From a virus: 42,527 nt of DNA. The notes beneath the pieces are model-generated. The model was not told the origin of the DNA and made no database searches. It saw nothing but the letters and a program-made list of their open reading frames with translations. Shown piece after piece: positions 443-42,498 of this stretch; the stretch's first letter is position 1, and each line of letters opens with the position of its first letter. A program made the position numbers and the translations under genes. Location: IMG/VR virus record IMGVR_UViG_3300046689_000434, positions 1-42,527 of that record, one strand, 5' to 3'.

Positions 443-460
443 TGGTACAAAAATTGGTAC
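443..460 (+). repeat. Candidate attL: near-copy of sequence in integrase 3' end
   Basis: TGGTACAAAAATTGGTAC here matches TGGTACAAAATTGGTAC at 42459-42475 in the same orientation, apart from one extra A. The pair flanks the whole prophage, as attachment-site repeats would. The motif is itself an internal repeat (TGGTAC twice), so it could instead be an integrase arm site or a relic of an older integrase end. No tRNA gene is visible at either end. Confidence 0.4.
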
Positions 461-522: not shown

Positions 523-753
523 CGTTAGCAATCACTCTCGACGCACCTCCGGACTCGGCTCGTGGCGGAGGGCAACGAAACCTTCTACAGTATTCGAGAT
601 GAGCCTGAGGAGGGGCGGGCAGGTGCAATCTTAATGGCTTTACGCCATACTGATTCGATTGGCGGCACATGATTCGCAACGTTAAATTTAAATAAGATCA
701 AACGCTTCCCTGCTTTTCGACTCTATGTTCACGTAAGTAGTCTCGGGGTTAGT

Positions 754-2829
754 ATGTTAAGGACTAATGAAAAGTATATGGAAGATCGTCGTCTCCTCGC
801 GTCAGCGGCCCTATTTCGTCAGCTTCACGAAAACAAAAAAGATGTTTATGACGTACTGGCTCAATTTATTCGCTCGTCGATCAGTTGGAGCTCTTCATGG
901 AGTTTCAATGTCACAGAATGTTCTAACATCCTAGAACGATATTTCGGTTTCAAGATTCCGGACGCAGTTATACGCACGTGCCTGAAAAAGCGTCTCAAGC
1001 GCGCGGGGGAACTATCCCTTCACCAAGGCATATACTCTACAACAGAAAACTTCGTCAGGGCTGACTCGCTGAAGGAAGACTACACGAGCATCCAAAGCGA
1101 ACAGCGCTATATCATCGACACACTGACGGAACACGTTGAGAAAATTAAAACAAGAAAACTAACCGAAGCTGAACGCACTGAACTTTCCGCAGACTTCCAC
1201 TCATATTTTTTAGGCGGATTAAAACCTTGCGAAAACTCAGTTTTTATCAGCGAGTTCATAGTCAAATTTTCTAGCTCTGCGGGATTTACTGAAAAGCTTA
1301 ATCGTGTTGAAGAAGGCCTTATCCTTTATGGTGGAATATGCCACTCCTCCAGCTTGGCCAATCATGAGCCATGGCGAAATAATTTTACTATCTATCTAGA
1401 TACCGAAGTACTATTTTATTCACAGGGATTCAACGGCACCCTACATAAGAATATTTTCGATGATTTTCACTCTCTGATAAAAGAAATCAACACACGAACT
1501 TCTCATGGCGCCAAAATTGAACTTCGCTACTTTGAGGAAGCCAAACGAGAAGTAGAAGATTTCTTTTATGCGGCCGAAAAAATTGTTCAGCAAAGGCAGG
1601 AGCCCGACCCATCTAAAGCGGCAATGGTAAACATAACTAACGGCTGCAGCACCACCGGAGACGTGCTGCTGAAAAAAGCTAAATTCTATGAGGCACTTCG
1701 TCGGCTACGTATCGAAGAAGAAGTTAGCCAAAACTACTATGACCCACCCACCTATGTTGTGGATGATATAGGAACCATTCAGTTACTTTTATCTGAACAA
1801 CCCGATTTAGATCAAGAAAAGATTCCAAGTGTTCTGCGTCTATTCACTAAAATCAACTATCTGCGACGCGGCTCAAGCCATAACGGTTTAGAGCAGTCTG
1901 CAGCTATTCTTGTTTCTGGAAAGTACATCACACGGGTTTTGGCATTTTCAAAAGCAGTATTACAAGAAGCAAGGCAAATCCCGTTCGCCACTGACCTAGA
2001 CCACTTGACTGAACGCCTATGGTTCAAACTAAACAAGGGGTTTGGAGACGGAAAGTTACCCTCCACCTTTGATGTAGTTGCACGAGCGCAGGTGATTTTA
2101 TCGACACAAGCCGGCAGCAAAGTCGCGGAGGACTATAAGTCACTACGTAGCCAGATCGAATCTGGGTCCATGAGTAACGATAGCGCTGGATTCCTACTTT
2201 CTGAGCTTCGCTCACGAACCACAAAACCCGAAGACTTCCAACCAGAAAATGTTGAGGAAATTACTGCTTTTCTGCGTAGCGAATTCATAGAAGATGCTCT
2301 TCGACAAAAAGCAGTACTTCAGCGCAAGGCGGAGGAAGGCGAACTGAGCCGAACTCAGGTAGGCGTACTTGAGGATCAACTCAAACAACAGGAAGAGTTA
2401 TCAAAACAAGACAAAGATCTACATCAACAACAGATTGACAGCACTCATATTCGGCACCAAGCACAACTACGTGCACGAGACATCGCTATGCACAAGGAGA
2501 AATTAAAACCGCTCCGCATTATTGCCGAGTACGAATACATTGGGTTTATTTTTCTCGCTTACGGCATAGCTGCGATAAGTGGCTTAGCTCTTATTTTATG
2601 GCTACGAAGCGCAAATGATACCTCACTTGGTATGCTGTCCGTAGCTTTGGGTATTTTACCTCTTGGAATTATGCTCATCAGCGGAAAAGCAATGTCTTTA
2701 TACTTCGCAAGGCGTGTCAAGGCCCGCTACCGCAGACGCCAGCGTAATAAGTTCACCATTCGCAATCTAGCCAGCTACTCCCAAGAGCTTGCGAAAGATC
2801 TTCCAGGCCTCGGCGAGTCATCCGGATAA
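754..2829 (+). CDS. Unrecognised 691-aa membrane-anchored protein, possible PIN-like segment
   Basis: Not recognised with certainty. The N-terminal ~100 residues are helical and basic and could form a winged-helix domain. Around residues 213-225 the motif IYLDTEVLF, followed by a helix rich in E and R, recalls the first acidic strand of PIN-type nucleases. Residues ~500-590 are a charged coiled-coil segment rich in Q, E and K. Two hydrophobic segments follow (~595-615 and ~625-648), then a very basic tail (RRVKARYRRRQR). Codon use is clearly AT-richer than in the phage structural genes, which suggests separate acquisition. The start at 754 has a GGGG-type ribosome site; an in-frame ATG at 778 is an alternative. 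Its position in prophage cargo next to an HNH gene makes an anti-phage role possible, but this is inference. Confidence 0.6.
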   Translation: MLRTNEKYMEDRRLLASAALFRQLHENKKDVYDVLAQFIRSSISWSSSWSFNVTECSNILERYFGFKIPDAVIRTCLKKRLKRAGELSLHQGIYSTTENFVRADSLKEDYTSIQSEQRYIIDTLTEHVEKIKTRKLTEAERTELSADFHSYFLGGLKPCENSVFISEFIVKFSSSAGFTEKLNRVEEGLILYGGICHSSSLANHEPWRNNFTIYLDTEVLFYSQGFNGTLHKNIFDDFHSLIKEINTRTSHGAKIELRYFEEAKREVEDFFYAAEKIVQQRQEPDPSKAAMVNITNGCSTTGDVLLKKAKFYEALRRLRIEEEVSQNYYDPPTYVVDDIGTIQLLLSEQPDLDQEKIPSVLRLFTKINYLRRGSSHNGLEQSAAILVSGKYITRVLAFSKAVLQEARQIPFATDLDHLTERLWFKLNKGFGDGKLPSTFDVVARAQVILSTQAGSKVAEDYKSLRSQIESGSMSNDSAGFLLSELRSRTTKPEDFQPENVEEITAFLRSEFIEDALRQKAVLQRKAEEGELSRTQVGVLEDQLKQQEELSKQDKDLHQQQIDSTHIRHQAQLRARDIAMHKEKLKPLRIIAEYEYIGFIFLAYGIAAISGLALILWLRSANDTSLGMLSVALGILPLGIMLISGKAMSLYFARRVKARYRRRQRNKFTIRNLASYSQELAKDLPGLGESSG

Positions 2830-2935: not shown

Positions 2936-2949
2936 CCCCCCCCCCCCCC
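2936..2949 (+). repeat. 14-base poly-C tract
   Basis: A run of 14 C residues lies in the non-coding gap after the 691-aa gene, 124 bases upstream of the next start codon. Long C/G homopolymers slip during replication and can underlie phase variation. They are also prone to sequencing error. Confidence 0.95.
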
Positions 2950-3073
2950 GGCTAGCCTGGCTGACTCCTCGAAATCACAATTCTTTGTAGCAATTTCTAA
3001 GCATGCAGCAATCACCGCCCATAAAGGGCACTACCGGTACTATGCTTGTTCTTTTTCGAAAGGAGTCGGAGCA

Positions 3074-3289
3074 ATGTCAGACGAATATTCGTTACGGGAT
3101 GTGCTGGAAAGGATCTACCAGAATCAGCTCGGTTTGGAAGCAGCCTTGATGGAGCTGACGCTTCATGCAGAACAGCAAGGTTTGCCCGACGTTGGTGAAA
3201 ACGTTCGTGGCGCCTTGTGGGTGATCGGCGAGAACGCTGGTCACATCAAGCAGGGCTTGGCCAAGCTGAGAGGGAAGAGCGAGGGCTAG
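3074..3289 (+). CDS. Small hypothetical protein, 71 aa
   Basis: The start at 3074 is chosen because AGGAG sits at 3061-3065 with normal spacing. The open frame extends upstream to 2915, but that part translates the poly-C tract and GC hairpin and looks artefactual. The product is acidic, mostly helical and soluble. It begins MSDEYSLRDVLERIYQNQ and has a second half rich in G, E and N (LPDVGENVRGALWVIGEN). It resembles small conserved Pseudomonas proteins of unknown function. No motif gives a role. Confidence 0.6.
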   Translation: MSDEYSLRDVLERIYQNQLGLEAALMELTLHAEQQGLPDVGENVRGALWVIGENAGHIKQGLAKLRGKSEG

Positions 3290-3373
3290 ATTGAGTGTAG
3301 ATGTCTGCCCAGATCATTCTGGGGCCTGCCAATTTCAATATGTAATGGAACACGTCAGCGGGGTGAGGGCTTT

Positions 3374-3901: not shown

Positions 3902-4167
3902 TTCACAGCAGAAGCGGCATTCGATCGTAAGGATAGGGATTCGAACCCCTTCGTTCGCCCCTCTGGGCCGCTCAGGGCCATTGAATTCGCCCCTCTCAAT
4001 GATGGCCAAAGGCCTCCCGCGGTATACAGCGGCCTCAAATTTACCCTAATTTGGCCCTAAACCACTCCCGATCCATATGGGATCTCATACGCCTCCGAGG
4101 TTCGGTTTTCTTTATCCCCTTCGTGATACTGTTTCAAGGAGCGCGGACACCTATTCGAGAAATGGCC

Positions 4168-5292
4168 ATGGACAACACCAGCTACTGTGCCCTGTGTGAA
4201 GAACGAATTGAAATCGCCAACGATTCCAGAGAGCACATCATTCCTCACTCAATAGGTGGCCGACGCAAAATTCGGTCGTTCATATGTATCGATTGCAACA
4301 GCCGTTCGGGCGATACCTGGGACGCTGAGATTTGGGAGCAATTTTCCCACCTTGCGATGATGCACGGTGTTGATCGAGAACGAGGGGCGCCACCGAATAT
4401 CAAGATTCAGACCATAGATGGAGAAAATTATCTCATGCTACCCGATGGCAGCATGACTATCCCGAATGCCACTTACAGGGCCGAGCCAAGCGAAAAAGGT
4501 CTGAAAATAAATATAACAGCAAAGGATAAGGCCACTGCTTATAAAATGGTTAAGCAGGTCGCAAGAAAAAACCCGAAGGTCGATATAAATTCTTTTTTGG
4601 GCGGCATGTCAATAAAAGAGACACCCCTTGAGTCACCCGTTACCTTTTCTGCTCAATTTGGCGGGGAGCTTGCCGGCCGTTCAATGGTCAAAACAGCGGT
4701 TGCACTAGCTGCAGCTGCTGGCGTGAGCCCTAAGTCCTGCGATGCAGCAATGCAGTACTTGAAGAACGACTCTGCAATACCACCTTACGCCTTTTTTTAT
4801 TTGCGCGACCTGGTCATGAATCGACCATCAACTCATACCTTCAATTGCGTTAGCGTTATCGGCATACCCGCGAAACGACAACTATTAGGCTACGTAGAAT
4901 ATTTTTCAATGTCGCGGATCGTGGTTATCCTTAGTGAACAATATGACGGCCCCTCGATACATACTACTTACGCTTTCAATCCTGCCAGCAGCTCTGGTCT
5001 CACCCTGAACGTGGACCTCAATCTATCCGAGGAAGAGCTAAAGCTGATCCGGACCGATCAAGCGTTGACGAATGAAACCTATACCGCCGCTCTCAAGGAA
5101 GGATTCGACATCATTTATAATCGCAGCCAATCTCGATACCTAGAGCGAGAGGCCAGCAATGCTTTCGAACACGCATGCGAGTCAATGGGTATTGAGAGAG
5201 ACAGCATCATCCCCACCGAACGAGCTGAAGAGTTCTCCAATCTCGTTGCTAATTATTTCGTTTCTAAAATAGCGCACATGATTCGTCGATAA
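4168..5292 (+). CDS. HNH endonuclease domain protein, 374 aa
   Basis: The N-terminus is an HNH nuclease domain with zinc knuckles: C7-x2-C10, then R-E-H23-I-I-P-H27, then C40-x2-C43-N44. This fits the HNH/McrA-like fold, with H23 the probable metal-binding or catalytic histidine. The remaining ~320 residues contain no motif I can name, including a KITAKDKATAYKMVKQVARK region that could be a small regulatory or recognition domain. The start is set at 4168, with GAGA seven bases upstream; 4162 (MAM...) is equally possible. The longer frame begins with TTG at 4051 and is less likely. HNH proteins of this shape are often restriction or defence enzymes carried on mobile DNA. Here that is inference from context. 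Confidence 0.7.
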   Translation: MDNTSYCALCEERIEIANDSREHIIPHSIGGRRKIRSFICIDCNSRSGDTWDAEIWEQFSHLAMMHGVDRERGAPPNIKIQTIDGENYLMLPDGSMTIPNATYRAEPSEKGLKINITAKDKATAYKMVKQVARKNPKVDINSFLGGMSIKETPLESPVTFSAQFGGELAGRSMVKTAVALAAAAGVSPKSCDAAMQYLKNDSAIPPYAFFYLRDLVMNRPSTHTFNCVSVIGIPAKRQLLGYVEYFSMSRIVVILSEQYDGPSIHTTYAFNPASSSGLTLNVDLNLSEEELKLIRTDQALTNETYTAALKEGFDIIYNRSQSRYLEREASNAFEHACESMGIERDSIIPTERAEEFSNLVANYFVSKIAHMIRR

Positions 5293-37580: not shown

Positions 37581-38618
37581 TTAGAGATCTAGCTTAAGCT
37601 CATCGTCTTCCTCTTCCCACTCATAATAGTCGTCGTCACCCTCAACATATCTAACAAGAATAACAGAATACCCTTTCAGCATAAGCATTTTAGAAAACTT
37701 CTTAAAGAACTCGATCTCAGGATCAACCGAACTCAGTCTTAAAAGCTGCTGCCCCAATCTTGTAACAAGATAAGATTTATAATCCACGCTTTTCGCGTCA
37801 TCACTTTCAATTACTAGCAACTTTTTGCCTGATAAAGCGATTAACGTCCTAAACCGCCCATCCTCTTCATCGATAGAGGGAACACTACTTATCAATGATT
37901 CAGCTTCTACGCCCGAAATCACGCCTAAACCTTGAAGCTCCATTAAATCATCAAAGCTAAAACCAAACTCCTCAAGAACATCATCTTCACCCCAAAGATT
38001 TTTTATGAAGCTAATCTTTGCAAGTCGCTCTATAAGATGCGCTTCTTGGCGAGAGAGATTTTTTATAAACTCAAGGCATCGTAAAGAAAAAGAACCAGGG
38101 GATTCGACCTCTTCTGCTAATAGCCGGCCCCACAAGCGTTGCATTTCTTCTGAGGAAACATTGCCCACAAGCTCGCGCCATCGATGAACCCAATCTTTCT
38201 CTACCGTAGTATTTGTCTCAGGACTGGCCTTATGCTTTAAGTGATCTTCAGCATAAAACACTGCTTTGGAAATATTGATATTTTTTCGAACGTTATCACC
38301 AATCATTTGCTCGATGGATTTTTCAAAAAATTCTGAAGCTATTAATACAGGCTCTACACGGTCATCAATAGAATCGTTAGAACGCTTTTGAAGCAAAAGG
38401 TTATTTCGTGGCATAAAGTCTTGCAGACGTTTACTGCCCTCTTTTATTTTTTCTGCATCCGCCTCAGCCTGAGCCATCGAAAGTAGCTCTAAACGACGAA
38501 TTTCAATCTGAGCGGATCCCTCACGCATTATCTGCCAAGGTTTTAGTAGAGTACTAACTCCGCTTACAGCAAGAGTATCCCAAAGACGTAAGATTAGTTT
38601 TTCGCCGGGAAAATCCAT
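37581..38618 (-). CDS. DUF2806-like protein in the immunity region, 345 aa
   Basis: The protein reads VHRWRELVGNVSSEEMQRLWGRLLAEEVESPGSFSLRCLEFIKNLS (~145-190), which looks like the DUF2806 core. It has an N-terminal helical part rich in E, Q and K and a C-terminal domain ending in a strongly acidic tail (EGDDDYYEWEEEDDEL). It is convergent with cI and AT-rich. GAGG lies upstream of the ATG. A gene between repressor and early promoter is often a lysogen-expressed accessory gene; anti-phage genes such as BstA sit in a comparable spot. A defence role here is inference. Confidence 0.6.
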   Translation of the reverse strand: MDFPGEKLILRLWDTLAVSGVSTLLKPWQIMREGSAQIEIRRLELLSMAQAEADAEKIKEGSKRLQDFMPRNNLLLQKRSNDSIDDRVEPVLIASEFFEKSIEQMIGDNVRKNINISKAVFYAEDHLKHKASPETNTTVEKDWVHRWRELVGNVSSEEMQRLWGRLLAEEVESPGSFSLRCLEFIKNLSRQEAHLIERLAKISFIKNLWGEDDVLEEFGFSFDDLMELQGLGVISGVEAESLISSVPSIDEEDGRFRTLIALSGKKLLVIESDDAKSVDYKSYLVTRLGQQLLRLSSVDPEIEFFKKFSKMLMLKGYSVILVRYVEGDDDYYEWEEEDDELKLDL

Positions 38619-41449: not shown

Positions 41450-42498
41450 CCAGCCTGATCAAGCACGGCGTGCTGGATGATCAGCGCTACGCCGAACTGT
41501 TCCCCAACTCCACCTATGCCACCTACTCGGCGACTCCCCGTTTCGGGGAGTACGCCCAGGAGTGGCTAGACAGTCGCGAGATCGTGGCCGGGACGCGCAA
41601 GAACTACCTCGGCTCCCTCAATCTATATTGGATGCCGTACCTGGCGATGCTGCCCATCGACAGCATCACCTCGGTGATGCTGCGCAAGGTGGTAGCCAAT
41701 ACCGAATGGCCGACGCCGGGCGTAAAGCGCGCGGCGATCCAGCGCCTGACCACAGTGTTCGGTACAGCGGTAAAAGATGGCCTGATGAACCGCAACCCAG
41801 TGGAATCCATCGAACTGCCAGTGAAGGCCAAAAAGCCCATCGATCCGTTCACGGTCGGCGAGGCCAACCAGATCATTGATCACCTTTATAAGACGCTGAC
41901 CCATTCAATGGGGATCTACGCGGCCTATTTTGAGTTCGCCTTTTACACCGGCATGCGCCCCAGCGAGATCGCGGCGCTGCGCTGGGAAGAGGTCGACAAG
42001 GAAAAGCGGCTGGTCAACGTGTGTCGAATCGTCGCGGACTATAAGATCGAGGAGCGTACCAAAACCCGTAACGGGCGCCAGGTCATGCTCAACAGTCGCG
42101 CACTGCACGCCATCGAACAAGCCGAGCTGGTGGCGCAACAACGAGCCTTGCAGAGCCGTCGCAAACGCGCCGAATCGCCCTACGTGTTCCCACCAACGAA
42201 GAACTTCGAGTTCATTCAACAGTCGAGCGTGACCGATAAACACTTCCAGGCTGCACTGACCGAATTGGGGATTCGCGCCCGCCGGCAATACAACTGCCGA
42301 CACACTTACGCTACCATGTGCCTCATGGCGGGTATGAACCCTGCGTTTATTGCCACTCAGCTCGGTCATAGCGTTCAGATGTTGCTATCGACCTACGCCC
42401 GATGGATCAACTCCAGCACCGACTGGGGTGAACTCGGAAAGCTCGAAAACAGCTTGATTGGTACAAAATTGGTACAGACAGAAACAGTACCCCTCTGA
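41290..42498 (+). CDS. int: Tyrosine-recombinase integrase
   Basis: A 402-aa phage integrase. The N-terminal ~70 residues form an arm-type DNA-binding domain (GVEFAGQSVRIRFTWNGQRR). Residues ~80-170 are the core-binding SAM-like domain. The catalytic domain has R223 (GMRPSEIAAL), R337-H338 (CRHTYAT), H360 (LGHS) and nucleophile Y369 (STYARW). The first histidine of the H-x-x-R box is replaced by tyrosine (Y334), as in some related integrases. AAGGAG precedes the ATG. Integration site choice is set by this enzyme. Confidence 0.95.
   Translation: MAREPMGLPTGVEFAGQSVRIRFTWNGQRRCETLPYPQTPKGIKAAADLRANVTSLIKHGVLDDQRYAELFPNSTYATYSATPRFGEYAQEWLDSREIVAGTRKNYLGSLNLYWMPYLAMLPIDSITSVMLRKVVANTEWPTPGVKRAAIQRLTTVFGTAVKDGLMNRNPVESIELPVKAKKPIDPFTVGEANQIIDHLYKTLTHSMGIYAAYFEFAFYTGMRPSEIAALRWEEVDKEKRLVNVCRIVADYKIEERTKTRNGRQVMLNSRALHAIEQAELVAQQRALQSRRKRAESPYVFPPTKNFEFIQQSSVTDKHFQAALTELGIRARRQYNCRHTYATMCLMAGMNPAFIATQLGHSVQMLLSTYARWINSSTDWGELGKLENSLIGTKLVQTETVPL
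42459..42475 (+). repeat. Candidate attR: near-copy of the sequence at 443-460
   Basis: This 17-bp sequence lies within the last codons of the integrase gene (reading I-G-T-K-L-V). Overlap of attP with the integrase 3' end is common in phages. The one-base difference from the left copy means an exact core cannot be defined here. The window stops 52 bases further on, so the right host flank cannot be checked. Confidence 0.4.

Follow-up and report, generated by a model that had tools for sequence, protein, structure and literature searches.

A prophage-end gene encoding a winged-helix, PIN-fold and putative membrane-hairpin protein with a predicted role in phage defense

What does the AT-rich gene at the outer edge of this prophage encode, and why is it carried there? 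The window analyzed here is the whole 42,527-nucleotide stretch of the virus record IMGVR_UViG_3300046689_000434 (IMG/VR). The gene is the outermost prophage cargo; other cargo and umuDC follow it, and the sequence before position ~245 looks like the end of a chromosomal gene. The initial annotation, made from the letters alone, described a possible membrane-anchored nuclease of unrecognized architecture and suggested that it could serve in abortive infection. The reading frame is open throughout and codes for 691 amino acids, and its GC content is 44.6% compared with 57.3% for the whole window, which bears out the AT-richness noted at first. The architecture was likewise unfamiliar to the model libraries, since the 691-aa protein itself is not recognized by any model of Pfam, NCBIfam, PHROGs, or PADLOC. 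The PADLOC-DB 2.0.0 HMMs gave no match at E ≤ 1, and neither the protein nor a profile of 7 members found anything usable in Pfam, NCBIfam, PHROGs, PADLOC, or PDB sequences. Weak matches to E1-E2_ATPase, AtoC, and FEN1 were discarded, being located on helices or low-scoring. The reading that we favor, with a probability of roughly 0.55, is that the gene encodes a PIN ribonuclease that works as a single protein, is anchored in the membrane and auto-inhibited, and aborts infection by phages. The features on which the analysis draws are collected in Table 1.

Table 1. Positions of the features in the window
Feature	Position	Strand	Basis or remark
att-like repeat TGGTACAAAAATTGGTAC	443-460		Outside the gene; partner TGGTACAAAATTGGTAC at 42459-42475 adjoining the integrase; suggestive
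Stretch ahead of the gene that moves along with it; probably the gene's promoter/5' UTR	618-753	+	blastn, promoter scan
Complete gene, coding for 691 aa; in order, a winged helix, a helical linker, the PIN domain, a long helix, a predicted two-TM hairpin, and a basic tail	754-2829	+	ORF, homologs, purifying selection
Winged-helix domain, residues ~26-125	829-1128	+	AF2 pLDDT ~75-92; VIA-align
PIN domain, residues ~208-425; carries a large insertion compared with VapC	1375-2028	+	VIA-align; PIN_3 match of L007
D216-T217-E218 motif, end of PIN strand 1	1399-1407	+	Alignment of homologs
E266, second PIN acid, helix after strand 2	1549-1551	+	Invariant in 16/16; also in the distant clade (E288 of L030)
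V360 at the canonical third PIN Asp position (D382 of L030)	1831-1833	+	Asp lost in the window's clade
D416, clade-specific acid, end of PIN strand 5	1999-2001	+	Acidic (D or E) in 86% of close-clade members
Long amphipathic helix/coiled-coil stalk, residues ~511-590	2284-2523	+	AF2 helix 511-618
Predicted TM helix 1, residues 596-614	2539-2595	+	Kyte-Doolittle 2.28
Predicted TM helix 2, residues 624-642	2623-2679	+	Kyte-Doolittle 2.19
Basic tail, residues 651-676	2704-2781	+	Sequence

Homology and purifying selection identify the reading frame as a genuine protein-coding gene. The dN/dS ratio between the window copy and the 85%-identical copy on a viral contig (L002/L013) was 0.066, indicating strong purifying selection. 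By part, the ratio was lowest (0.02 to 0.03) in the winged helix, the PIN domain, and the segment after it, with 0.033 each for the first two, and highest (0.18) in the membrane part and tail. Translation may begin at ATG 754 or at ATG 778; homologs on Pantoea, Duffyella, and Chromohalobacter DNA have a start equivalent to the latter (M9). In blastn, homology to the viral contig begins at 618 and homology to the S. stutzeri copy (L009) at 644, and both stop at ~2780 to 2788. Because the homology ends ~110 to 136 bp upstream and at the 3' end of the gene, the gene and its upstream stretch behave as one mobile cassette. Promoter and terminator scores upstream of the gene were at or below chance, with no sigma-70 match above chance in 618-753. 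A region with a 124-aa ORF lies downstream of the gene in the window (2946-3291) and upstream of it in L013 (4080-4424), with 84% nucleotide identity, and this placement on opposite sides indicates that the cargo modules are shuffled.

The family is sparse and widely scattered. Apart from the viral contig copy, the closest relative was that of S. stutzeri (80% identity), followed by copies on enterobacterial plasmids of Pantoea, Citrobacter, and Duffyella (43 to 49%) and by those of Shewanella, Chlorobiaceae, Chromohalobacter, and two further Gammaproteobacteria (33 to 37%). More distant homologs were found in Helicobacter and Bacteroidota, and the relatives together span Gammaproteobacteria, Bacteroidota/Chlorobi, Campylobacterota, Actinomycetota, and Bacillota. 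Full matches occurred in 3 of 369 Gammaproteobacteria genomes and in 3 of 296 genomes of the phylum of L010, where the distant L030 was found in addition. Among 398 genomes of its family, the S. stutzeri genome itself was the only match. Four of 5,426 complete E. coli genomes carry a relative (WP_136676584.1), which has 87% nucleotide identity to the Citrobacter plasmid copy; the search of E. coli genomes for close matches to the Klebsiella homolog found none. When viral contigs were scanned with the homologs of Chlorobiaceae and Helicobacter, no further relatives emerged. Short, weak matches in G261, G1065, and G1251 were left uncounted. L024/L025 (the same loci as L031/L032) were tried as homologs on a weak match and left out of the count because their full ORFs failed the profile search at E 0.01; both adjoin TIR/caspase-like genes.

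The whole protein was modeled with AlphaFold2 from six sequences (mean pLDDT 73.5, moderate), and the region 186-470 was also modeled alone (mean pLDDT 64.5). In VIA-align comparisons with PDB structures, residues ~26-125 matched the winged helices of F93 (Z 9.5), PadR/LmrR, MarR, and IclR at Z 8 to 9.5. The model thus supports the N-terminal winged helix that had been proposed at first, and the domain may act as a DNA-binding-like sensor. For the whole model, the top rows were VapC toxins (3zvk, Z 9.7, rmsd 2.6 Å, 129 of 132 target residues; 6nkl, Z 9.5), with model residues ~211-416 superposing on these PIN toxins. The isolated PIN region matched VapC at Z 8.4, and nearly all of its rows were PIN proteins (VapC, FitB, HARP, Nmd4, Rrp44, and Utp23/24); the rmsd across the VapC matches was about 2.6 Å over ~125 to 129 residues. 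Z scores of 8 to 10 are middling. Plain Foldseek, with the whole model or the domain, returned mixed, insignificant matches and nothing below E 0.001, so that VIA-align 2 gave the PIN assignment where plain Foldseek stayed insignificant. The order of strands and helices in the model fits a PIN domain, with a parallel sheet of ~5 strands and a VapC-like topology. In addition, the homolog on an Arthrobacter plasmid (L007) matches Pfam PIN_3 (E = 3.4e-4) over the same motif, and this family is matched by two of the seven distant-clade members. These results support a PIN fold for the central part of the protein. The fold search suggested by the initial annotation was accordingly dominated by PIN proteins, and the acidic strand that it had picked out, IYLDTEVLF (residues 213-221), lies within this continuous, mid-protein domain. 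The coiled coil predicted at the same time corresponds to the long helix of the model.

The residues of the predicted active site were compared across 16 homologs in all; the close clade has 14 members and the distant clade 7, and the two are homologous over 474 columns (hhalign 99.8%, E 6e-30). An Asp near residue 216 had been singled out for mutation, and it is exactly D216, conserved in 15 of the 16 homologs and replaced by Glu in L029. T217 is conserved in all 16, E218 in 14 of 14 members of the close clade, and E262 is near-invariant in that clade. The seven distant homologs have the canonical acids, with D246, E288, and D382 (L030 numbering) invariant together with T410. In canonical PIN nucleases the third acid stands before the helix preceding strand 4. 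The window protein has V360 there, and this position is non-acidic in all 14 close homologs, whereas its Asp is invariant in the seven distant ones. Because the third Asp is lost, the active site of the window's clade is non-canonical, and the protein is not classed as a canonical PIN nuclease. With this acid missing throughout the close clade, catalysis could be altered or lost. Either the metal site was rebuilt in this clade or catalysis was given up; the invariance of the remaining residues argues for rebuilding, and we infer that the PIN domain is catalytic. The nuclease proposed at first is thus supported in its fold and in the retained D216 and E266, and has a non-canonical active site. 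The lost third Asp beside a conserved D-T-E motif poses a precise enzymological question.

The C-terminal part was as initially described, with hydrophobic segments at 596-614 and 624-642, followed by ARRVKARYRRRQRNK. By hydropathy, two segments are present in 14 of 16 homologs and one segment in L008 and L029. Basic residues precede the first segment and fill the tail, so by the positive-inside rule both ends would be cytoplasmic, which suggests an N-in/C-in hairpin. The absence of the third Asp from all 14 close homologs raises a different reading of the protein, in which a degenerate, non-catalytic PIN domain binds a ligand or RNA and the hairpin is the effector, oligomerizing upon activation and damaging the inner membrane. 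Transmembrane proteins are common effectors of abortive infection (PMC9122126), and the long helix runs into the hairpin. However, D216, E218, and E266 show little or no variation and few parts are as well conserved as the PIN domain, whereas the membrane part is the least conserved (dN/dS 0.18 versus 0.03) and shows a single segment by hydropathy in two homologs. We consider this reading unlikely. Being the least conserved, the membrane part more likely serves as an anchor or a regulator, and a second effector role for it is not demonstrated, in contrast to the membrane effector suggested initially. Computationally, the gene is a conserved, selected, and mobile single-gene cassette that combines a winged helix, a PIN fold, and a predicted C-terminal membrane hairpin.

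The surroundings of the gene and of its relatives bear on its function. In the two E. coli genomes inspected, a lambda-like prophage at ssrA has the relative as its outermost gene, adjoining the tail-fiber genes; the Shewanella and Helicobacter copies also lie inside prophages, and plasmid carriage is frequent. Other relatives have defense genes as neighbors. L010 separates Mod from Res in a type III restriction-modification (R-M) operon with a YhcG nuclease, L037 adjoins a type III R-M system, L030 directly follows hsdRMS with an AAA_15 ATPase beyond, and L026 adjoins a C5 DNA methyltransferase. In addition, L034 is one gene away from a CBASS operon, L011 is near a PDC-S59 candidate (PADLOC), and L009, in a mobile element, has an RT-Toprim gene ~6 kb away. 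In total, 7 of ~21 inspected loci are near R-M, CBASS, RT-Toprim, or PADLOC candidates, which is a raw count; L027, L028, L029, and L044 had no recognizable defense neighbors. The relatives concentrate in prophage ends, plasmids, and defense islands. Because they recur at the ends of prophages and next to established defense systems, the gene probably encodes an unrecognized, self-contained bacterial immunity protein. The prophage-end position and the neighbors of the relatives support a predicted role in anti-phage defense.

An HNH gene had been named as a neighbor of the gene. It is present 1.2 kb downstream (4051-5292, plus strand; HNH_5, E = 1.7e-11) with two ORFs between, and it is not a conserved partner: in the homologs inspected in detail no HNH gene is directly adjacent, and HNH-type sequences occur at a distance in L007 and L030. 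Judging by the loci inspected, the neighborhood is coincidental. The HNH_5 protein has relatives on plasmids of Pseudomonas, Azotobacter, and Cupriavidus, annotated as HNH endonucleases, and is separate cargo. Across the inspected loci, neither a conserved partner gene nor a conserved adjacent small, antitoxin-like gene was seen.

The fusion of a winged helix to a VapC-like fold and the frequent carriage on plasmids would also fit a single-chain toxin with its own DNA-binding or antitoxin half, which stabilizes mobile elements by addiction and has no anti-phage role. This would leave the location in or beside R-M and CBASS loci unexplained, and proteins of 600 to 700 aa are far above the matched VapC chains (127 to 142 aa). 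Moreover, post-segregational killing is hard to obtain, because a fused antitoxin cannot be lost separately. Such an addiction function is decidedly unlikely. A winged helix at the N terminus, a membrane anchor at the C terminus, and the outermost position beside other cargo and umuDC recall a prophage accessory gene with another role, such as a membrane-tethered regulator of the ToxR/CadC type or a factor that processes host or prophage transcripts during lysogeny. However, the family occurs in R-M operons, plasmids, and islands of at least five phyla, with no conserved regulatory targets or divergent promoters, and ToxR-type regulators are not known to contain a PIN domain. We regard an accessory role of this kind as quite unlikely.

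If the gene encodes an abortive PIN ribonuclease, the protein would sit on the inner membrane with its winged helix and PIN domain in the cytoplasm, and the PIN domain would be held inactive by the winged-helix and helical part. An infection cue, which may be phage DNA, a phage protein, or a disturbance of a neighboring restriction system or of the membrane, would release it. The PIN domain would then cut tRNA or mRNA using D216, E266, and the clade-specific E218, E262, and D416, and translation would halt before phage maturation. A separate antitoxin would not be required.

Several known systems share parts of this design. VapC and other PIN toxins of type II toxin-antitoxin systems share the fold, as the best structural match, together with the strand-1 Asp and the second Glu. 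They differ in being small toxins with an adjacent antitoxin gene, whereas the window protein is a 691-aa single chain with a large insertion in the PIN domain, without the third Asp, and with an added winged helix and predicted TM hairpin, and its family has no separate antitoxin. Of the systems examined by experiment, DS-3 and DS-5 come nearest; in both, mutation of the PIN catalytic residues abolished protection (PMC13092281). DS-3, found by DefensePredictor, is a one-protein PIN defense with essential catalytic residues; it has no antitoxin, and auto-inhibition up to the time of infection has been proposed for it; DS-5 is a two-protein defense in which the PIN domain is essential (PMC13092281). 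The window protein resembles DS-3 as one protein with a PIN domain and no antitoxin, but by its description the PIN domain of DS-3 is split between the N and C termini, whereas that of the window protein is continuous. DS-5 likewise depends on a PIN domain but needs a second protein (DUF5830/AcrIF4-like), and the window family has no conserved partner. The anticodon nucleases PrrC and RloC are of the ABC-ATPase/HEPN type and not PIN proteins. As toxic RNases tied to R-M operons, they offer a functional analogy for the R-M-linked homologs; they have no known membrane anchor, and the window copy has no R-M partner. PrrC is described as a toxic tRNase that its linked type I R-M enzyme keeps silent and that a phage anti-restriction factor activates (PMC2610378). 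Prophage-encoded single-gene defenses are exemplified by the HEPN protein Tha (PMC11087260) and by an S. aureus prophage protein that is anchored in the membrane and acts against kayviruses (PMC10127798). Both are encoded by prophage cargo genes and stop infection; they have other folds, and neither is described as combining a winged helix with PIN and TM parts.

The protein is a likely PIN-based defense of new architecture, with its function predicted. If the reading holds, it belongs to an overlooked single-gene defense family in at least five phyla and ~1% or fewer of the sampled genomes, and adds a membrane-tethered member, unrecognized by any library searched, to the few known PIN-based defenses. 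A broader view, which we offer as tentative and on balance doubtful, is that of an unnamed family of wide distribution whose members are one-protein immune receptors with a winged-helix sensor, a PIN effector, and a membrane stalk, and in one clade of which the active site was rebuilt around D-T-E. Copies embedded in type I or type III R-M operons could then serve as guards, responding once restriction is disabled by a phage, and prophage copies would act alone. Because a close relative is present in four E. coli genomes, the defense idea is directly testable in laboratory E. coli.

Several other genes were observed in the window and around the relatives. At the opposite end of the prophage, an AT-rich gene (37581-38618, minus strand) adjoins the S24 repressor; its product matches DUF2806 (E 3.6e-26) and weakly Abi_alpha (E 0.0018), and it is probably a second cargo gene of the exclusion/Abi type. 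In the S. stutzeri mobile element near rpoD (L009, 5-5272), unannotated genes separate an RT-Toprim_I-C gene (E 1e-218) from a cll-like gene (E 4e-20). On the Hymenobacter plasmid (L037, 9438-13371, minus strand), two CHAT-domain genes are close to the type III R-M system and the PIN homolog. The islands L031 (6564-10328) and L032 (5530-10885) share an uncharacterized protein of 658 to 670 aa beside TIR-like and caspase-like ORFs. In L030 (2895-5976, minus strand), an AAA_15/NsnB-like ATPase and then two unannotated ORFs lie downstream of the type I R-M operon and PIN homolog and are a candidate for another defense module. In L026 (5452-6483, minus strand), a 343-aa ORF with no Pfam or PADLOC match lies directly beside the C5 DNA methyltransferase and is a candidate restriction endonuclease of a new type.
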